DNA of 33,379 bases. It comes from Bryobacterales bacterium (GTDB lineage: Bacteria > Acidobacteriota > Terriglobia > Bryobacterales > Bryobacteraceae). Made by a program: the position numbers and the translations under genes. The notes under the pieces were generated by a model that ran no database searches, had not been told where the DNA came from, and saw only the letters and a program-made list of their open reading frames with translations. Location: assembly GCA_020847315.1 (NCBI GenBank), contig JADLCF010000240.1, positions 1 to 33,379 on the forward strand. The letters are read 5' to 3'. Each line of letters starts with the position of its first letter. Within the stretch, counting starts at the first letter, position 1. This document shows positions 9,493-18,551 of the stretch, one piece after another.

Positions 9493-10095
9493 TCATGGGA
9501 TGACAATCTTTCCGCGCCAGGGGTCGCCCGCTACCGTTTCGCGCGGCCCGGGCTCCGATGCAGGCCTCGGCGTCATCTCACCGATGGAAGGAGCTAGAGC
9601 AATGGGCGGTGGCGGCGGCGCAGCTTCCCGTAACGGCGGAGCGATCTCCCGTGAATCCACCGGAAGCAAATGAGCATGTTCGGCGGCCCAGCGCGCGGCA
9701 AGCCCGTTTAGCGGGCTTTTCACATTGTATTCCTGATAGGCGATCATGCGCCCGATGCGGATGATCAGATCGTCGAGGCCTTCCGAGGCGGCCCAAAAAT
9801 CCCCGATGCAGACGGTGGTGTGATCAAAATTCGGATGAAAGAGCGGGGTGAGAATCCTGCACTGGGGAGCGCGGCGCGGGTAGCCGAGCGAGAGGTTGAC
9901 TTCCACCAGGTGCTCGCCGCGCTCGACGATATCGCCACCCGGGGCGACGGCGAGACCCTTTACGGAAAGAGCGAAGCGGTAGTGCTCCGGCGGTTGCCCT
10001 TGCTGGGCTACCAGACGGATGACCGGCCATCCGTCAAAGCGGCGGATGAGGGTTTCATAATCGAGGGCGAGGCGGCGTATCCGTGGAGAGATCAT
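9493..10095 (-). CDS. Bacterial E2 ubiquitin-conjugating enzyme-like (UBC fold) protein with proline-rich tail
   Basis: A 200-residue protein whose first 145 residues read as a UBC/E2 fold. The central strands VEVNLSLGYPRRAPQCRIL match the E2 YPxxPP region. They are followed by H87-P88-N89 and, seven residues after the Asn, Cys96 in VCIGDFW, the position of the thioester Cys in eukaryotic E2s. The downstream NVKSPLNGLAARW matches the E2 helix that begins NPLN. Residues about 151-190 form a proline-rich tail containing five prolines in a row near 160-164. E2s take the Ubl from E1 as a thioester and pass it to a target. The gene starts 22 bases after the DUF2752 stop. There is no good Shine-Dalgarno, so translation is probably coupled. 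The E2 assignment is from motifs by eye. Confidence 0.85.
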   Translation of the reverse strand: MISPRIRRLALDYETLIRRFDGWPVIRLVAQQGQPPEHYRFALSVKGLAVAPGGDIVERGEHLVEVNLSLGYPRRAPQCRILTPLFHPNFDHTTVCIGDFWAASEGLDDLIIRIGRMIAYQEYNVKSPLNGLAARWAAEHAHLLPVDSREIAPPLREAAPPPPPIALAPSIGEMTPRPASEPGPRETVAGDPWRGKIVIP

Positions 10096-10117: not shown

Positions 10118-10561
10118 CTACGGGGCGAGATAGCCTACCCACCCCAGAAAGGGCAACGTATCCGGCAGGTTGCGGAGGATGGTAAACAGCGTTGCCGCCA
10201 CCACCAACCCAAACGAAATCCGGGAAGGCACGCGCAGGTCCCGAACACGATTGTCGCGAACGGCATCGGCAAAAAGCAAAACCCCGAACCACGCGAGCCC
10301 CGGCAGCAGCGCGACGAGTAGCAAGTTCGCATCCATCGCTTCCGCGAGTTGCCCGTGCAATAGCGCGTGCAATGAGCGCGCACTCCCGCAGCCGGGGCAG
10401 AAGAATCCTGTGGCGGCATGGATCGGGCAGGCGGGCAGGTACCACGATTGCCGGGGCGGCGAGGCATAGAGCACGCTCGCGCCCGCCACGCCAAGGGCCG
10501 CCAGCAGCCAAGCCACACGGCGCGGGGAAGAGGCGAGAGATTGAGCTGAGAGCGGCATCAT
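10118..10561 (-). CDS. DUF2752 family membrane protein
   Basis: A 147-residue protein with about three transmembrane helices and the DUF2752 signature: CPIHAATGFFCPGCGSAR (residues 45-62) and a following HALLHGQ. The four conserved Cys/His residues look like a metal- or thiol-reactive site at the membrane surface, but no function is known for the family. The first ATG (10559-10561) overlaps the TGA of the preceding GYF gene by four bases (ATGA), so it is tightly coupled to the operon. DUF2752 genes often sit near TM2-domain genes, and a TM2 protein is encoded in this same operon. Its role in conjugation is unknown. Confidence 0.86.
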   Translation of the reverse strand: MMPLSAQSLASSPRRVAWLLAALGVAGASVLYASPPRQSWYLPACPIHAATGFFCPGCGSARSLHALLHGQLAEAMDANLLLVALLPGLAWFGVLLFADAVRDNRVRDLRVPSRISFGLVVAATLFTILRNLPDTLPFLGWVGYLAP

Positions 10562-11388
10562 CGTGGCCGGGCGCCTCCCCAGGTTTGCAGCCTCCGCACT
10601 TCGTCGAGGCGGTATTGGATCCAGACTGGCGCAATCAAAAAAATGAGGTTGGTGAGCCAGCCAATCACCACAAAGACAGTGAAGATCCCGCCGAGATCGA
10701 TGCGGGCCGCGCCCCAATGCGCAGTGGCTTCCGAGAGGCTGCTACTCATGGAGATAAATCCGGCAATGGAGGCGATGGCGGCGCCAAGGGAAAGCACGAG
10801 GACGGGAATGGCCATCAACCCGCCGATCACCTCGTCCCCATGGCCCGCTACCTCGCCGGCGATGCCGCCGCCGATCGCAATGGCGATCACAGCGGGGATC
10901 AGCAGCAGGGGCAACAGCAGATACAGCGTGGCCCGGCTGCCGGGATCGAGCTTCTTGACCCATCGGGATTGCACAATGGACCAGATGTATCCGAAAAGGG
11001 TGCAGGTGCAGATGGAAAGGATCAGAACCAGCCACCAATCCATTCCAGGGGGCGGCGGGATTTGAGCGGGGATGGCAGAGACCATGGGCTGCATGGGGTA
11101 GCCCGCGCCGAAACCGGGCGCGCCGAGCGCCTGGGGGGCGCGATGAAAGCCGCCATCCAAGCCGGCACCGCCCATGGGTTCCGCCACGCCGGATTCCGCG
11201 AACGGTGCATTCTGGAATGGCTGCGCCACCGCCAGTTGCGTGAGTTGGGCGGCGGTGAGCGGCAATCCCCCTCCCTCCGGTTCCAGGCGGTCTTCCGGAG
11301 CGATGTTCCCGGACGCCAGGTAGCGCCGCACGTCGTCTGGCGTGTAGGGGCCGTAGCGTGTTCCGCCACGGTTGAGAAAATACATCAT
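10558..11388 (-). CDS. GYF_2 domain membrane protein, third paralogue (most diverged)
   Basis: A 276-residue protein: an N-terminal GYF_2 (DUF4339-like) domain (YFLNRGG, then RYGPYTPDDVRRYLASGNI, residues 3-30), a flexible Pro/Gly-rich linker to residue 115, and four or so transmembrane segments. The linker ends in PPPPG (residues 111-115) just before the first helix, which is the kind of motif eukaryotic GYF domains bind. The membrane part is more diverged than in the two upstream paralogues. ATG at 11388 (a second ATG follows at 11385) with GGGAG nine bases upstream. The stop overlaps the DUF2752 start. Function unknown; a docking or scaffold role in the Ubl system is inferred from context. 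Confidence 0.82.
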   Translation of the reverse strand: MMYFLNRGGTRYGPYTPDDVRRYLASGNIAPEDRLEPEGGGLPLTAAQLTQLAVAQPFQNAPFAESGVAEPMGGAGLDGGFHRAPQALGAPGFGAGYPMQPMVSAIPAQIPPPPGMDWWLVLILSICTCTLFGYIWSIVQSRWVKKLDPGSRATLYLLLPLLLIPAVIAIAIGGGIAGEVAGHGDEVIGGLMAIPVLVLSLGAAIASIAGFISMSSSLSEATAHWGAARIDLGGIFTVFVVIGWLTNLIFLIAPVWIQYRLDEVRRLQTWGGARPR

Positions 11389-11486
11389 CCGCGCAGTCTC
11401 CCATCTCCACCCTGGGCGTGGAAACGCCGTCAAACAAGCCTATGTCCGGCCGCGGAAACGCTTATTTCCGAGCGGCTTCATCCCTA

Positions 11487-12185
11487 TTACGGTGCGAGCG
11501 CTCCGGTCTTTTTCCATTCCACGATTCGTGACATATGATACTGCAGATAATACATTCCCACGAAGACGGTGAGCACCGGATTCAACCGGAGCTGGATATT
11601 TTCGACGGTATTGAAGTAGGTCAGCATCTCCTTTCGCATGGCCAGCTCCGCCGCGAAGAAGAGGCCCAACCCGGCCAAGGAAATCAGAACCGCGATTCCA
11701 AGGAAGAAGAACATGATTGGCAGACTCAGATCCGGGTCCTTGGGAGCGGTCTCCACCAAGGGAGAGAAGGCGCTCAGGGCGATCGACGCAACATAGGTGA
11801 TCCCGAAGGAAGCGGTGAGCAGCCAAATGGACCGGTTGGCGGGATGCAACTGCTTCAGCCACCAAGCCTGCATCAGCATCCAGATCATAGAGAAGAACCC
11901 GCAGGTGAGGATGGTGAACAAGAGAACCAGCCCCCAATGAAGATTCGGGGGAAGCGGCGCGCCGTTCGCCATTTGCGGACGCAGATACGCAGGGGCGTAA
12001 GCGCCGGGTGGGATGGCGGGCGCGGCTGCCGACGACATCCATTGGGAGAGTGGGCGATGCGCTTGCTCATCCTCCCGCCTTACGAGATCGTGCGGGAAAA
12101 GATGGCCGCTTGCGAGGTAGCGGCGCAGATCCCCTTCCGTGTAGGGGCCATACTCCCGCTGTTCCCGCTGGACGAAGTAGTTCAT
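11487..12185 (-). CDS. GYF_2 domain membrane protein, second paralogue
   Basis: A 232-residue protein: GYF_2 domain at residues 1-50 (YFVQREQREYGPYTEGDLRR), a short proline-containing linker with IPPGAY near 58-63, then four hydrophobic segments. Its C-terminal part (YFNTVENIQLRLNP, and a QYHMSRIVEWKKTG ending) matches the first paralogue closely enough to show tandem duplication. Only 69 bases separate it from that gene. The membrane part resembles DUF4234-type regions often found behind GYF_2 domains. No function is known; cytoplasmic display of the GYF domain at the membrane is inferred. Confidence 0.83.
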   Translation of the reverse strand: MNYFVQREQREYGPYTEGDLRRYLASGHLFPHDLVRREDEQAHRPLSQWMSSAAAPAIPPGAYAPAYLRPQMANGAPLPPNLHWGLVLLFTILTCGFFSMIWMLMQAWWLKQLHPANRSIWLLTASFGITYVASIALSAFSPLVETAPKDPDLSLPIMFFFLGIAVLISLAGLGLFFAAELAMRKEMLTYFNTVENIQLRLNPVLTVFVGMYYLQYHMSRIVEWKKTGALAP

Positions 12186-12254
12186 GGAGACCCGAACCGG
12201 GCGGCGCTCGCGATGGAAACTGCCGCCCGGTTGAAGAGGAATGTAAGGCGCGGC

Positions 12255-13175
12255 TCAGGAAAGGCTTCCCGTGGTCTTCCAGGTATTGATCCGATTGAAG
12301 TGGTACTGGAAATAGAACACCGCGAAGAAGATTACCAGGATGGGATTGAGCTTCAGATTGATGGGCTCCACGTTATTGAAGTAACCTTCGAGCGAAGCTT
12401 TCATATTGAACACCGCCAGAATGTAAAGAACCAGCAGCCCGATGCTCACGAGCGAACCCATGCTTGAGACCAGCGTTCCCAATGAAGAATCCGGCATGGC
12501 GATCGAGAGTCCAACTCCGCCGAACGTCAGCGCGAGCACGCCAACGTATCCCACGAGGTATAGGATCAGGAACTTCTGCCCTTTGCTCTGAGGGTCGAGC
12601 TTCTTGAACCATGCGGCTTGAATGAAGAGCCAGATGAGGGCGAAAAGGCCACAGGTCAGAATTGCGCCCACGACCACGATCACCCAGTTCATGTTGGGAG
12701 GCAGCGGCGCGCCGTTCTTGAGCGTACCGGCCCCGCCCACGCCGGCGGCGCCCCCGAACTGCTGAACGGCGGGCTCCGGCGCGCCCCAGGCGGGAGTGAC
12801 CGGAGCGGGGGAAGAAAACCCGGGGTCACTGCCGTAAGCGGGAGCGCCACCGTAGGCCGGTCCGGCGCTGGTTCCAAAACCGGGAGAAGGGGATGGAGCA
12901 GCATAGGATGGGGGCGTCGGGGTGGGCTCATACGAAGGCGCTGGAGAGGGAGCGGGAGTGGGAGTATAGGCAGGCTGGGATGCCGGAGCGGGTGTTGCCG
13001 CTTGCGGCTGGGCCGCCTTGCCGCCCACAATATCCTGCACGGTCAGCCAGCGATCCGTGCCCTCCGCGCGCACCAGATCCGTCTCGACGATATTCCCCGA
13101 GCTTAGGTACTGGCGGATATCGGCGCCCGAGTACGGTCCGAACTCCTGATCGCCCCGCTTAATCATGAACATCAT
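12255..13175 (-). CDS. GYF_2 domain membrane protein, first paralogue with long proline-rich linker
   Basis: A 306-residue protein: GYF_2 domain at residues 1-50 (MIKRGDQEFGPYSGADIRQY), a roughly 100-residue linker rich in Pro, Ala, Ser, Thr and Tyr (about residues 55-160), then four transmembrane segments and a C-terminal YFNNVEPINLKLNP and WKTTG ending shared with the second paralogue. I start it at the ATG at 13175, where the domain begins; an upstream in-frame start at 13226 would add a non-homologous leader. The gene follows the RING-TM2 gene after 85 bases. The disordered linker would let the GYF domain reach away from the membrane. Confidence 0.83.
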   Translation of the reverse strand: MMFMIKRGDQEFGPYSGADIRQYLSSGNIVETDLVRAEGTDRWLTVQDIVGGKAAQPQAATPAPASQPAYTPTPAPSPAPSYEPTPTPPSYAAPSPSPGFGTSAGPAYGGAPAYGSDPGFSSPAPVTPAWGAPEPAVQQFGGAAGVGGAGTLKNGAPLPPNMNWVIVVVGAILTCGLFALIWLFIQAAWFKKLDPQSKGQKFLILYLVGYVGVLALTFGGVGLSIAMPDSSLGTLVSSMGSLVSIGLLVLYILAVFNMKASLEGYFNNVEPINLKLNPILVIFFAVFYFQYHFNRINTWKTTGSLS

Positions 13176-13260
13176 GGCAGATGATTTCCCTTCGATGCGT
13201 ATTGCGGCTCCCTTCGCCGCGCTCACACCCGACCGGCTGAAATCCTATTCAGCACAAACC

Positions 13261-13923
13261 TCATAGCATGGGGTGGCCGCTGCCATCCCGTTCCACCTTG
13301 CAGATTTCCACCAGAGCCCAGATCCAAACGGCGGGCGCAGCCAGAAAGCAAGTAAAGGCACTCACGCAGAGTTGAATAATACCAACACTCATGCGATTTG
13401 CATACAGGTTATGCACGCCCAGATAACCAAAAAAGAACCCAAGCAGCGTGTATGTCCGCCGATCGGTACTAGGCGCGACTTCTATGGCAGTTAGCGAGAA
13501 CGAGGACCTATCCGGCTCGGAGAGGCCAAAAATTGCGTTTGCCGCGCTGGGCAGAGGGACGTAGGGCTGCGCTGTATCGTAGGGCTGCGCTGTATCGTAG
13601 GGCTGCGCTGTGGCGTTGGGATCCGCTGTGGCGTTGGGATCCGCTGTGAGGGGAGGATCGCCCGGCCCGCTGGGCGGCGGGGGCACGCCGGTGGTGGCGG
13701 ATTCCGGCCTCGAGGGGCTCCAGACATAAGGCGGCCCGAGTTCGCTGCCGCTGACGACGACTTTGGCTTCTTCCACAGGCGCTTCGGCACAGCCGAATAC
13801 CGTACATCCGCCGTTCTCCTCCCAGCACTCGGCGTGGTGAGGGGTTGCGCAGCCGGGGCAGACGATGAGCGCCGCTTCGTCTTCCATCGGCGCGCGACAG
13901 TATGGGCAGACGGAGTTGCTCAT
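13261..13923 (-). CDS. Prokaryotic RING finger fused to a TM2 membrane domain (E3-like candidate)
   Basis: A 220-residue protein. The N-terminus is a binuclear treble-clef zinc finger of the prokaryotic RING type: C6/C9, C22/C25, H29 or H30 with C33, and C40/C45, including the hallmark HHAECWEENGGC. A Pro/Ala-rich linker follows, with PPPP near 81-84 and five near-identical hexapeptides (residues about 93-121). The C-terminal 60 residues are a TM2 domain with two membrane helices (LLGFFFGYLGVHNLY and a later WIWALVEI). RING fingers bind E2s and promote transfer, so an E3 or scaffold role beside E2, E1 and Ubl is a reasonable inference. Its ATG overlaps the stop of the FHA gene by four bases. 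Confidence 0.87.
   Translation of the reverse strand: MSNSVCPYCRAPMEDEAALIVCPGCATPHHAECWEENGGCTVFGCAEAPVEEAKVVVSGSELGPPYVWSPSRPESATTGVPPPPSGPGDPPLTADPNATADPNATAQPYDTAQPYDTAQPYVPLPSAANAIFGLSEPDRSSFSLTAIEVAPSTDRRTYTLLGFFFGYLGVHNLYANRMSVGIIQLCVSAFTCFLAAPAVWIWALVEICKVERDGSGHPML
13561..13650 (-). repeat. Five tandem 18-base repeats within the RING-TM2 gene
   Basis: Five consecutive 18-base units (13561-13578, 13579-13596, 13597-13614, 13615-13632, 13633-13650). The first two are identical, the third differs at its last bases, and the last two form a second subtype. On the coding strand they encode hexapeptides of the type AQPYDT and ADPNAT in the linker between zinc finger and membrane domain. 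The in-frame period means copy-number change would lengthen or shorten the linker without a frameshift. Confidence 0.9.
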
Positions 13924-14987
13924 TGGCGCTGCCGCTCCTGATAGAGGAAGCTATAGCGGCCGATCCGCAGCAACTCGCGATTCTCCAGCAGTTTCTGCTT
14001 GATGGGCTGACCGGAGGCGTAAACAGGGCCATGCGCCACCACCCAGACGCGCGAGCCACGCAATTCGAACGTGGCGTGCAGTTCCTGGATGGCGAGATCC
14101 TTGAAGAGATAGATGTCACACCCCTGGCTGCGGCCGAGCGTGGTGAGAGGCTTGTAGAGGATGAATTGCTTGCCGGCGAGCGGCCCGGCGGAGACGTAGA
14201 GCCATCGATCTTTGAGCGCGCTCTCGACGAGGCCGATCGCCACGCCGGTGGCCAGGCCGAACAACCCAAACCCGACGCCGCGGGATAACGCGCCGGAATC
14301 CATGGCCATGGCGATGGGATCGAAGAGCACGCCTCCGATGCCGGCCCCGAGCATCCCCCCCAGCAAGCCATAGAGCAGTTTTTTTCCGCTCAGCCCGACC
14401 ACCCCATACACCAAGCCTGCGCTCGCGCCGAACAGAACCCAAGCGAGCGCGCGGCAGGCCCACCAAGCGGGCGATTCCGGCGTCAGCGTGCCAGACCCCG
14501 CGACGATTGCAAGCAGGATGTTGTAGAAGATGTTCGCGATGAAGTTGAAGATGAACCCGAGCGGGATGCCGAGGCCCAGGGCAATCGCGCCGCGAATGAG
14601 CGCCTTGCGGGTGGAACGCTCCACGACGCTTTCCGCCATGGCGCAACCGGTGCACAACACCGCCACCACGGACGGAATCATCAGCAGATCCGCCCAGTTG
14701 GATTCGAGGCCGTCTTGAAAGAAAGGTTCGACAATGCCCCATCCCGCCAGTGCGCCGAGCAAGCCCGCCGCGCCAAGGTAGAACCAGCTCCGCAGGAAGA
14801 GCTTGCCTTTCCCTTCAGCCTGAATCAGGTCCGGCGATGCCGTATCCCGGATGTTGCCATAGGAACGAGACGCCGTAGCGGTTTCGGCCGTGGGGACTTC
14901 CGCCAGGGGATCGTTCGAGGGACTGACGATTGCAATCTGTTCGAGGTCTTCGGCGGTGATGCGAATTCTACCGGACTCTTCGTTCAT
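13920..14987 (-). CDS. Polytopic membrane protein with C-terminal degenerate FHA domain
   Basis: A 355-residue protein: an acidic N-terminal tail of about 60 residues, six or more glycine-rich hydrophobic segments (about residues 65-255), and a cytoplasmic FHA domain from about 267 to the end. In the FHA domain the GRS motif (285-287) and His304 are present, but the Ser expected three residues before that His is Gln301, and the Asn loop reads ASGQPI, so phosphothreonine binding is uncertain. The ATG at 14987 was chosen because GGAGGAG lies nine bases upstream; the in-frame ATG at 15005 overlaps that site. Stop and RING start overlap (ATGA). The gene follows the JAMM gene by 69 bases. Confidence 0.85.
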   Translation of the reverse strand: MNEESGRIRITAEDLEQIAIVSPSNDPLAEVPTAETATASRSYGNIRDTASPDLIQAEGKGKLFLRSWFYLGAAGLLGALAGWGIVEPFFQDGLESNWADLLMIPSVVAVLCTGCAMAESVVERSTRKALIRGAIALGLGIPLGFIFNFIANIFYNILLAIVAGSGTLTPESPAWWACRALAWVLFGASAGLVYGVVGLSGKKLLYGLLGGMLGAGIGGVLFDPIAMAMDSGALSRGVGFGLFGLATGVAIGLVESALKDRWLYVSAGPLAGKQFILYKPLTTLGRSQGCDIYLFKDLAIQELHATFELRGSRVWVVAHGPVYASGQPIKQKLLENRELLRIGRYSFLYQERQRQ

Positions 14988-15056
14988 GCGGCCTCTCTCC
15001 TCCATCGATGGCGCGCCCTCCCAAAGGCAACTCGCGCCCCACGGGCAAGCGTTAGG

Positions 15057-15929
15057 TCACGGCGTTCTCGCGGGCGCGCCGGCGGGCGGCTCCTCCGGTG
15101 GGCGCTGTTCTTCCAACTGGCGCTGCCGCGCGCGATCAAGAGCGGACTGCACCTCCCTAGGAGAGAGCAGACGCCCGTCGGGCAAGGAATACATCACGAT
15201 CGTGCGGGGCAGCAGAAGGACGCCGCCAGCGACGCCGGCGATGAACACAACGCCGAGCGCGAGCAACAAGAACAGCTTGCGGCTGAGCGAAGACTTGCGG
15301 GATTTCGGCAAGGCTTCCGGCGCATTCGTCCCTAACCTGCGCTGCGCGGGTTCTTCCTCCACGCTCACGATTTCGTCGGGTTCTTCGCCCTCGACGGGAG
15401 CATCCGCGGCGGTGGTCTCGATCAGGCGAATCTCGCGCACCCGGGTCACTTTGCCATCCACCCAGCCGAAGCAGCCTTCTTCATCCGAGTGCGGATCATA
15501 GACCCAGGCTACCTGGGCCGGGGAGGAGAAGAAATTCTCGTGAATAAACAGGTCTTGCCGCGAAAGGAAGATGCCGAAGCCGGGATGTGAGTGATACCAG
15601 CCAACGATCCGTTTCTCGGGGAACTCGCGATCCTTGACAGCGTAGATGTGTGCCCAGGTGTCCTGGGTAAAGGTGACATGAGCGCCGCCCTTCGCCGCCC
15701 CCTCCCCTTCGATGGACGCTTCAATCAGGGTAACGCCATCCACTTCCTCGCCGATCAGCACGCCGCAAATTTCCGCGTTCATCTCGGAGCGGGCATGGCG
15801 GTGGATGCGCTGCGCAACGCCGGCCGCGATGGCGACGCGCGCGCTGGCCGCCAGCATTTCCGGGGTGATCTCCGCAGGTGGATTGACCGGCGCCGGGCTC
15901 GAGTCCGCACCATTCTTCCGCTCTTTCAT
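15057..15929 (-). CDS. Membrane-anchored JAMM/JAB metalloprotease (deubiquitinase-like)
   Basis: A 290-residue protein. The JAB/MPN domain spans about residues 25-170 and has a complete JAMM zinc site: Glu53 in NAEICGVLIG and H113-S-H115-PGFGIFL-S123-RQ-D126. Such enzymes hydrolyse the isopeptide bond after the C-terminal Gly of a Ubl. A basic stretch and a single membrane helix follow (about 217-240), then about 50 residues ending in a proline-rich tail. By the positive-inside rule the catalytic domain should be cytoplasmic. The ATG overlaps the TGA of the E1 gene by four bases (15926-15929). In this operon it is the natural deconjugating enzyme; the target is unknown. Confidence 0.9.
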   Translation of the reverse strand: MKERKNGADSSPAPVNPPAEITPEMLAASARVAIAAGVAQRIHRHARSEMNAEICGVLIGEEVDGVTLIEASIEGEGAAKGGAHVTFTQDTWAHIYAVKDREFPEKRIVGWYHSHPGFGIFLSRQDLFIHENFFSSPAQVAWVYDPHSDEEGCFGWVDGKVTRVREIRLIETTAADAPVEGEEPDEIVSVEEEPAQRRLGTNAPEALPKSRKSSLSRKLFLLLALGVVFIAGVAGGVLLLPRTIVMYSLPDGRLLSPREVQSALDRARQRQLEEQRPPEEPPAGAPARTP

Positions 15930-17143
15930 ACCGCCTCCCCCACGAGCAATTGCAGCACTTGCGGAGCATCCCCTTCCATGATGTACGCGACCTCCGCATC
16001 GGCGGAACGCGCAACGAACACATCGTACAGCGGCAGGCCCCACTCGGATAGCGGCCGTGCGGCCCATTCTGGATTCGCGGCGAGATCCCGCCGGGTGAAC
16101 CCGTGGCGGGTGACCACTTCCCGGACGGCTCCATCGGCGGGGTCGCGCCCCTGTTCGTAAGAGATGCTGCCGAGAGGGGCGAAGCACTCCTGGGTGGCTC
16201 CCGTCCCAGGATGCACCAGCTTCCAGATGATATCCCGGCTGAACTCGATGGTGACGTCGTCCGACCCCAGTTCCCCGGCGGCCAGATTCACAAGCGCCTC
16301 CGCCGTGAGGCGATCGGAGCGCTCGTTCAGCCGCACCACGCGGTCAAACACGTAGTGGCTTTGGCAATCCGGGTCCGCAGTGTACTCGGTAAGGTAGCTC
16401 GTGTGGTGGAGCCCCTCGAACACATATCCTTTACCGCTGAGAGTGGGAAGCCCGTGCAACAATTTCAGCGCTTCCTGCACCTGGATTCCCGCGATCACCG
16501 ACGAGGTGGTGGGCGTGGTGGGCACCTTCCCCTGTTCCTCGTCGGCGCGCGTTAGCAAGTTGCAAGACATCCGACGCTCAAGGATCGCCCAATCCACTTC
16601 GCCGAGCGTGCATTCGTAGCATGCGGGCTTGCCGGATTCAAAGACACGGGCCACGCCGTTTAGTCCTTCGATCGCGCCATCCACCCAGGGCTTGCCCAAC
16701 TTCCAGGCGGAGCGGTTGAGGAAAAGGCGTGCCTCGCGATTATCCAGGCCGCCCAGAATGAGATCCGCCCAATCGAACACGCCGAGCCCAAGTTGCTGCA
16801 CCACGTTGGCGCGCATCCCCAGCACTTGCGCCTGGGGGTAGAGCGCACGGACGGATGCCGCCGCGGCTTCGGCCTTATCTCGCCCGATGTCACTCTCGCG
16901 GAAGAGAACGCCTCGGGAGAGATTGGAAACCTCGATCCGGTCCAGATCCACGACCAGGATCCGCCGGAAGCCGAGCAGCGCGAGGTTCTTGAGGATCTCA
17001 TTGCCGAGCGCGCCGGCGCCCACCACGAGCACTCGGGCCGAGGCGATGCGTTCCTGATTCCACCAGCCCAGAAGGCGGAGGCGGCTGAATCGGTCTTCCG
17101 CGATCTCACCGGGAGAGACGCGGATCGGCTCAGGTGGCGGCAT
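15926..17143 (-). CDS. E1-like ubiquitin-activating enzyme (ThiF/UBA fold)
   Basis: A 405-residue adenylating enzyme. The ATP-binding loop VGAGALGNEI (41-50), the acidic VDLDRIEVSNLSRG stretch with Asp67, and an Arg/Lys pair in GRDKAEAAA fit the E1 superfamily. A zinc knuckle C175-YE-C178 is followed by Cys194 in MSCNLL, which sits where the catalytic Cys of NEDD8 E1 (UBA3) sits. The second zinc half is probably C260-QS-H263 rather than CxxC. PTTPTTSSVIAGIQVQEALKLL-like sequence (208-229) matches the crossover region. A further 120 residues at the C-terminus may be an E2- or Ubl-binding part. It adenylates the Ubl C-terminus and forms a thioester. The gene starts five bases after the Ubl stop. 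Confidence 0.92.
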   Translation of the reverse strand: MPPPEPIRVSPGEIAEDRFSRLRLLGWWNQERIASARVLVVGAGALGNEILKNLALLGFRRILVVDLDRIEVSNLSRGVLFRESDIGRDKAEAAAASVRALYPQAQVLGMRANVVQQLGLGVFDWADLILGGLDNREARLFLNRSAWKLGKPWVDGAIEGLNGVARVFESGKPACYECTLGEVDWAILERRMSCNLLTRADEEQGKVPTTPTTSSVIAGIQVQEALKLLHGLPTLSGKGYVFEGLHHTSYLTEYTADPDCQSHYVFDRVVRLNERSDRLTAEALVNLAAGELGSDDVTIEFSRDIIWKLVHPGTGATQECFAPLGSISYEQGRDPADGAVREVVTRHGFTRRDLAANPEWAARPLSEWGLPLYDVFVARSADAEVAYIMEGDAPQVLQLLVGEAV

Positions 17144-17148
17144 GGAGG

Positions 17149-17418
17149 TTACCCGGCGGTGATTTCCGGTTGCAGGCGCAGAATATCTCCGTCGGCGACG
17201 GCGGCTTCGGCGAGAGTTTGCGCATCGAGAATCTGCCGGCCGCTGTTCTTGTGGTGAAACTTGTAGCTAAGCGGCGCGCCATCGGGTCCGTTCTTCGGCA
17301 ATTGCAGCTTATCGACGAGCACCGCGATGATCTTGCTGGCGACGGCGTCGTCGGGCAATTCCACGGGCACCCGTTTGTTCTCCGTGGAGTCATAAACGGT
17401 TACATTGATTACGGCCAT
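17149..17418 (-). CDS. Ubiquitin-like protein, YukD/EsaB type, ending in Gly
   Basis: An 89-residue beta-grasp protein: INVTVYDST at the N-terminus, a central helix (DDAVASKIIAVLVDKL, residues 24-37), and a final strand GDILRLQPEITAG. It closely resembles the YukD/EsaB Ubls associated with WXG100 secretion, but no secretion ATPase or WXG100 gene is near. The chain ends in a free Gly directly after the last strand, so no processing is needed before adenylation by the E1 encoded next door. There is no GG pair. Several Lys residues could accept chains. It is preceded by the protease gene (23 bases) and followed by E1 (5 bases). Confidence 0.9.
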   Translation of the reverse strand: MAVINVTVYDSTENKRVPVELPDDAVASKIIAVLVDKLQLPKNGPDGAPLSYKFHHKNSGRQILDAQTLAEAAVADGDILRLQPEITAG

Positions 17419-17441: not shown

Positions 17442-18551
17442 CTAACGGCCTTCAGCGGCCGGCGTGAGTTGTGCGCTTTTTGGCCCGAACGCCGCCTGGT
17501 GCGCGCTTATCCAGCTTGCCATCAACTCCTTGCCATTGGCTTGAAAATCCCAAGGCCCGCTATCGAGCAGGGCGTCGGCGCGCACGGCAAAATTCAAATT
17601 CTCCGCATTGGGGTTGAAGCGACGGTCTACTTTATAGCTGACGACTCCAAGCAGTTCGCCACGGTCATCATAGACCGGTCCTCCACTATTGCCGGGACTC
17701 ACGGGCGCGGAAATCTGCACCATTTTATCTTCATGCGTGCGCATGACGATGCCCGTGCTGAGCGAAAAGAAGTAGCGCTCCGGATGGCCGATGACGAACA
17801 CGTTCCTGCCTGCCTCGGCCTGGCTGAAGGGCGCGATGGGCTGCACGAACGCACTCTCGCCCGCGCCACGCTTCATCCACACGAGGGCCAGATCGAGGTC
17901 TTTATGCCGCGCCACCACCCGCGCCTGGCCGTAATCGCCCGCCTTTGAGAAGACGAGTATCGTCTCCGGCCGGCCGCCCGGGTTCAACCAACTCTCTCCA
18001 TCCACCACGTGCCGGTTGGTCGCCAGCAGAAAACCGGCCTTGTCCGCATGGAGCAGTAGGCCCGCACCTACGGCGGCCGTCTCCAAATAGCTATCGGGCA
18101 GCTTCCAATTTCCGGAATCCGGGCTGAGGACGAACACGAGCGGCGCGGTGCGCTGCGCCACTTGCTGGGCGTTCATCGGTTCGGCGGAGGGAAGCTTCGG
18201 GAACTCCGGCAGATACTCCAGAGCGGGCAGGGACGACACAAAACGCATCGGCCGGGGCGCCAAGAAGTATGCCATGCTAAAAAGAAGCGTTGTCAGCAGG
18301 CCGCTGGCGATCAGCAGGGAATTCAGCCATGCCGCCCAGGCGTGCCTGGGTTTTGGAGAGTGGTTGCGGAGCGCGAGGCGAACCGCGAGAGCCACCAGGC
18401 AAAGCACCGGAAGCACAAGCACGAGTGGCAATGTGGCAAGGCGCAATCCCAGCGAGAGTGGAGGCTTTTGCGCCGTCGGCTCGGGCGTAGTCCCGGCTGG
18501 CGGAACAATGACGTCCCGCACCTCTCGCGTTGTGACGACAATTTTCTCCAT
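17442..18551 (-). CDS. Membrane-anchored trypsin-like serine protease
   Basis: A 369-residue protein and the first gene of the Ubl operon. An N-terminal tail with proline-rich patches (residues 16-32) leads into two transmembrane helices (about 38-60 and 76-97). The trypsin-like domain follows with the full triad: His181 in TNRHVVDG, Asp220 in KDLDLALV and Ser289 in SPGNSGGPV. The basic loop between the helices suggests that the protease domain lies outside the cytoplasm, but this is inference. HtrA-like catalytic motifs are present, but no PDZ domain. A Shine-Dalgarno AAGGA lies seven bases before the ATG. It may act on membrane or envelope proteins, possibly downstream of Ubl signalling. 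Confidence 0.88.
   Translation of the reverse strand: MEKIVVTTREVRDVIVPPAGTTPEPTAQKPPLSLGLRLATLPLVLVLPVLCLVALAVRLALRNHSPKPRHAWAAWLNSLLIASGLLTTLLFSMAYFLAPRPMRFVSSLPALEYLPEFPKLPSAEPMNAQQVAQRTAPLVFVLSPDSGNWKLPDSYLETAAVGAGLLLHADKAGFLLATNRHVVDGESWLNPGGRPETILVFSKAGDYGQARVVARHKDLDLALVWMKRGAGESAFVQPIAPFSQAEAGRNVFVIGHPERYFFSLSTGIVMRTHEDKMVQISAPVSPGNSGGPVYDDRGELLGVVSYKVDRRFNPNAENLNFAVRADALLDSGPWDFQANGKELMASWISAHQAAFGPKSAQLTPAAEGR

Follow-up and report, generated by a model that had tools for sequence, protein, structure and literature searches.

A RING-TM2 protein encoded with E1, E2, JAB, and a YukD-like ubiquitin-like protein in a Bryobacterales genome: a candidate membrane-bound partner of the E2

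Do bacteria have true RING E3s? The locus described here raises this question, as it belongs to a bacterium carrying a complete gene set that resembles the ubiquitin tagging machinery, including a RING fixed to the membrane. To our knowledge, none of the bench-studied bacterial ubiquitin-like (Ubl) pathways, namely Bil, Bub, and CBASS, uses a RING E3. A conserved RING that is tied to an E2 in many phyla and is usually membrane-bound provides a set of proteins with which to ask the question, and the same set bears on whether the architecture of membrane E3s has multiple origins. We analyzed a window of 33,379 nucleotides (contig JADLCF010000240.1 of assembly GCA_020847315.1, from a Bryobacterales bacterium), in which a first-pass annotation had proposed a candidate membrane-bound E3. 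The RING-TM2 protein probably serves a membrane-associated bacterial Ubl conjugation pathway as an E3-like partner of the E2.

The protein is 220 amino acids long and is encoded at positions 13261-13923. The first-pass annotation had these coordinates right and gave no strand; the gene lies on the minus strand, and the plus strand over this interval is interrupted by stops. The reading frame begins with ATG, has an AGGAG-like site upstream, and overlaps the end of the FHA gene by four bases (ATGA). The fusion of a RING with TM2 in a single protein is borne out, as both domains score above their Pfam cut-offs and AF2 models both confidently. A Prok-RING_1 zinc finger (PF14446; aa 3-43, E 4.6e-12, 46.1 bits against a cut-off of 29.1), within a RING spanning aa 3-45, is connected by a proline-rich linker (aa ~50-150, with PPPP) to a TM2 membrane domain (PF05154; aa 157-205, E 4.3e-8, 33.7 bits against 27.9). 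With 27 relatives in the alignment, the AF2 model reached pLDDT 83-94 over residues 1-50 and 91-97 over the TM2 part, and the linker was modeled at low confidence. The earlier wording, a two-helix TM2, matches the description of the Pfam family but not the model, in which the membrane part has three helices (155-168, 178-190, and 196-209). A search of solved structures with the protein sequence found no relative, and the topology, judged by eye from charge, showed no clear orientation; the RING domain would presumably face the cytosol.

The gene sits in a run of 11 genes, all on the minus strand. The run opens with a membrane-anchored trypsin/HtrA-like protease (17442-18551; Trypsin_2 E 4.8e-22, two N-terminal hydrophobic segments), followed by a YukD-like Ubl (17149-17418; PF08817 E 3.7e-13), a ThiF-type E1 (15926-17143; PF00899 E 1.1e-51) whose nearest solved structures are of the SUMO-E1 subunit UBA2 (3kyd_B, E 2.8e-29), and a JAB/Prok-JAB peptidase (15057-15929; PF01398 and PF14464) that has one C-terminal hydrophobic segment and overlaps the E1 gene at an ATGA. 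A multi-pass membrane protein with a C-terminal FHA domain (13920-15005; FHA at the Pfam cut-off, six hydrophobic segments) precedes the RING-TM2 gene. Behind the latter lie three genes for GYF_2 membrane proteins, two with PF14237 (12255-13226, with four hydrophobic segments, and 11487-12185, called a membrane protein by hydropathy) and one GYF_2-like protein below the Pfam cut-off (10558-11433, likewise by hydropathy). The DUF2752 membrane protein that comes next (10118-10717; PF10825 E 1.4e-17) has an uncertain start, since its listed open reading frame overlaps the third GYF gene by 160 bases. The last gene encodes an E2 with a UBC fold (9493-10095; PF00179), an HPN motif at residues 87-89, the catalytic Cys96, and a proline-rich tail. 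Its AF2 model (pLDDT 86) aligns in VIA with UBE2S at Z 14.7, and both C96 and HPN are invariant in 29 relatives. The RING is therefore co-encoded with E2 and Ubl, as had been claimed, and the same run adds E1 and JAB. The window flanks that we examined hold ordinary metabolic and RNA-modification genes and thus give no sign of a defense island.

The Ubl ends in LQPEITAG, a tail that is almost unchanged in lineages ranging from Acidobacteria to Clostridia. Many loci encode a further 1-10 residues after the AG, as in ubiquitin precursors, and there the Ubl would need processing. A simple hydropathy count across loci found Ubl and E2 to be soluble in almost all cases and E1 in most, with hydrophobic segments in 88-97% of the protease, FHA, RING, GYF, and DUF2752 frames and in 64% of JAB proteins. 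The proteins outside the conjugation core are thus mostly membrane proteins, and the whole pathway looks membrane-associated. For the RING itself, the membrane-bound state noted earlier is well supported by the TM2 match and by a hydrophobic segment C-terminal of the RING in 61 of 69 RING proteins. Alternatively, the operon might encode an assembly or secretion device with a YukD/EccD-type Ubl as in type VII secretion, the RING protein being a structural component in the membrane. The Ubl belongs to the Pfam YukD family and weakly matches EccD, and the abundance of membrane proteins would fit such a device. Against this stand the presence and conservation of E1, JAB, and an E2 with its catalytic Cys, as well as the conserved glycine of the Ubl tail with its occasional extensions, a mark of C-terminal activation; moreover, no WXG100- or EccC-like gene was seen in the 11-gene run. 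We consider a secretion device very improbable.

Scanning a genome collection with the E2 sequence only retrieved 80 loci, in which RINGs were counted by a strict ligand motif because at many loci an iterated RING HMM strayed to zinc ribbons. The motif recurs in 60 of these 80 loci, in many phyla, and its presence near an E2 is not a matter of chance. The RING is on the strand of the E2 in 59 of the 60, at a median gap of 493 bp, and the two frames overlap or lie at most 100 bp apart in 23 loci, with one more (L090) at 95 bp. The other 20 loci include several that run into contig ends, one with a variant RING (L100), and four from Asgard archaea; six with distant E2s (L109, L115, L119, L120, L128, and L129) showed no clear RING on the scanned contigs, some of which are short. 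Among 396 evenly sampled Acidobacteriota genomes, 12 have an E2, and all six with an above-cut-off RING belong to these 12 (hypergeometric 1.8e-10, relatedness not corrected). At a looser threshold, eight of 10 RING genomes have the E2 (1.6e-12, again uncorrected for relatedness). Putative orphan RINGs in three genomes without E2 (G036, G049, and G107) were rejected, as the full ligand pattern is absent, and a fourth such genome (G394) has a divergent pattern. No fusion of RING and E2 genes was found. The tight genetic coupling of the RING to E2, E1, Ubl, and JAB across phyla is well supported.

The conjugation system is patchily distributed among near relatives. Within 61 near-relative genomes, a close E2 occurs only in the genus of the window and in two others (G007 and G057); G044 has an E2 that is more distant. 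The E2 tree places Verrucomicrobia, KSB1, and a deltaproteobacterium among Acidobacteria, which suggests transfer between phyla, although some of these are MAG contigs and could be misbinned. One Acidobacteriota genome (G086) yields 14 Prok-RING_1 matches spread over many contigs (e.g., L134 and L143-L152), some of them C-terminal in larger frames, and may represent a bacterial RING expansion. Three tandem RING genes immediately precede the E2 in L095 (6636-8835). The E2 shares one open frame with TPR repeats in Acidobacteriaceae (L070:2679-4835 and L068) and with an FHA domain in Spartobacteria (L085:9854-11008 and L072), and operons of the Armatimonadota type (L104, L112, and L122) have an additional, divergent E2 encoded upstream of the protease. 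Clostridial operons (L108, L117, and L127) have the compact order Ubl-E1-E2-JAB-RING, with a small RING protein containing one hydrophobic segment.

How constant is the membrane anchor? RING-TM2 is the rule in Acidobacteria and is also found in L077 (Verrucomicrobia) and L094 (Sumerlaeota). In other lineages, the RING is fused instead to DUF805 (Planctomycetes, L098), to GYF (Spartobacteria, L072 and L085), or to domains matched below cut-off, DUF4190 in L104 and DUF4234 in L090. TM2 as a constant feature was accordingly rejected, and the emphasis placed on a TM2 anchor by the first-pass annotation, right for this genome, is too narrow for a family that uses several modules. Because the membrane partner differs by lineage, what stays constant is the RING with its E2; the membrane module can be exchanged. 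The three GYF_2 membrane paralogues of the window (10558-13226, minus strand) lie beside a RING protein whose linker contains PPPP and an E2 with PPPPP in its tail. PPPP follows the RING in 20 of 25 RING proteins whose locus has a separate GYF gene and in none of the 34 without one, and RING proteins with a fused GYF also have no PPPP after the RING. This pattern was not relied upon, since nearly all GYF loci are from Acidobacteria and represent few independent events, and some loci without GYF have PPPP elsewhere in the RING protein.

Is the zinc finger a RING at all? Only ten positions are invariant over 30 divergent relatives (C6, C9, C22, C25, H30, C33, N37, C40, G44, and C45). They include all eight ligands named in the first-pass annotation, and C6, C9, C22, C25, H30, C33, C40, and C45 form a complete cross-brace with H30 as ligand 5. 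The annotation had left this ligand as H29/H30; H30 stands, whereas H29, the residue before it, is replaced in 13 of 69 RINGs and is not a ligand. Read from the alignment, the ligand order is C4HC3, which is RINGv/PHD-like, and not the classical C3HC4; a review has noted this order for prokaryotic RINGs (PMC11354881). The best VIA-align match to the model is the RNF165 RING from a UbcH5b~Ub complex (Z 5.0, 1.5 A over 42 residues). Behind it, other RINGs are mixed with PHD fingers that score nearly as high, and several of the top matches are RINGs from E2 complexes. Foldseek alone ranked the EL5 RING-H2 first and then PHDs, with no significant match. The predicted structure is thus of the RING/PHD cross-brace type and cannot separate RING from PHD. 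Pfam profiles favor RING, as the PHD profile falls below its cut-off (17.8 against 24 bits, E 0.0035); the Pfam hits, taken up to E 0.1, included no RINGv match.

Judging from the alignments, only some of the residues on which canonical RING-E2 pairs depend are present. Between ligands 1 and 2, all 69 RINGs have Y, F, V, I, or L (Y8 here), and the corresponding archaeal residue, I30, is required in vitro (PMC5654768). Four residues past ligand 6, where c-Cbl has Trp, all 69 have Asn, an equivalence by position only; directly after ligand 6 comes an aromatic W, Y, or F, or Leu in two RINGs. The linchpin position after the last ligand is A46 here, and only 17 of the 69 RINGs have K or R there; F or Y is kept two residues before ligand 8. 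On the E2 side, the loop-4 Phe of the canonical YPFKPP is replaced, with YPRRAP in the window and YPREKP, YPRQAP, and similar motifs in bacterial E2s; YPF is absent from the bacterial E2 motifs listed, and three Asgard E2s have YPFKQP. As loop-4 Phe, RING Trp, and linchpin Arg/Lys are not conserved, we do not class the protein as a canonical RING E3. The idea of a membrane-bound E3 is partly supported: membrane anchoring and the coupling to E2, E1, Ubl, and JAB hold well, and E3 activity is a prediction.

These missing contacts also bear on another reading, in which the zinc finger is a non-catalytic PHD/treble-clef adaptor, binding peptides or serving as a membrane-protein scaffold, and the E2 transfers Ubl without an E3, as in RING-less bacterial pathways. 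The closeness of PHD fingers in fold, the weak PHD profile match, and the few E2 loci without a RING all point the same way. An adaptor would leave unexplained why the near-universal partner of the finger is the E2 and not any one membrane module, given that the module changes from lineage to lineage, and Pfam places RING, not PHD, above the cut-off. On balance, we find an adaptor unlikely, though a more serious contender than a secretion device.

Returning to the E3-like reading, the E1 would activate a Ubl that already ends in a single glycine, which in some relatives would be exposed only after removal of the short extension, and the charged Ubl would pass from E1 to Cys96 of the E2. The RING-TM2 protein may then dock the charged E2 at the inner membrane, allowing Ubl transfer to membrane-proximal targets, with the FHA and GYF membrane proteins probably acting as scaffolds and JAB reversing or processing the conjugates by trimming or removal. 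We infer E3 activity for the RING, along with its binding to the E2, its stimulation of transfer, and the nature of the targets. A further possibility, which we regard as doubtful, is that the pathway is confined to the membrane, that the RING activates the E2 through a non-eukaryotic contact that dispenses with loop-4 Phe, helix Trp, and linchpin, that the GYF proteins keep the enzymes together by gripping the proline-rich RING linker and perhaps the E2 tail, and that swaps of the membrane module change the site or the target. If the conjugation reading is true, YukD-like Ubls would join the conjugated modifiers.

Much of this has precedents. Burroughs, Iyer and Aravind reportedly predicted RING E3s with E1, E2, JAB, and YukD-like Ubls in bacteria in 2011, and the Pfam entry Prok-RING_1 (PF14446) reportedly describes bacterial versions as carrying transmembrane helices. 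The window operon belongs to these predicted RING-bearing Ubl operons, Acidobacteria included, so the notion of a bacterial RING E3 is not new; the survey of membrane-module swaps and of individual residues was made in this analysis. In eukaryotes, MARCH (RING-CH/RINGv) E3s carry a C4HC3 RING at the N-terminus and, behind it, a short membrane hairpin. RING-TM2 shares the N-terminal C4HC3 RING and the membrane part but has no RINGv Pfam match, and we treat the likeness as an analogy rather than as shown homology. A review (PMC4197634) cites Burroughs 2011 for related operons that occur sporadically in Actinobacteria, Planctomycetes, and Acidobacteria and are frequently absent from close relatives; RING family (PF14446), partner genes, phyla, and sporadic distribution all agree with the window operon. 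Our full-text literature searches found no experimental paper on this RING or on RING-TM2.

Among experimentally studied systems, the ubiquitination-like Bil and Bub pathways are likewise bacterial operons of Ubl, E1, E2, and protease, but their parts differ from those of the window (PMC12687455). In PADLOC, the window E1 matches BilD/E1-E2 defense models over part of its length only (E 2.4e-10 for BilD); for the Ubl, E2, and RING, PADLOC gave no match. The archaeon Caldiarchaeum subterraneum encodes Ub, E1, E2, a RING protein, and a peptidase of the JAB family in a compact operon, and in its E1/E2/srfp(RING) cascade the RING is needed for substrate modification in vitro (PMC5654768). That RING is a RING-H2 in which I30, W58, and R69 are important, whereas the window RING has no equivalents of the Trp and Arg. 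Also unlike the archaeal system, the window RING protein is membrane-bound and its Ubl is YukD-like with a single-Gly tail.
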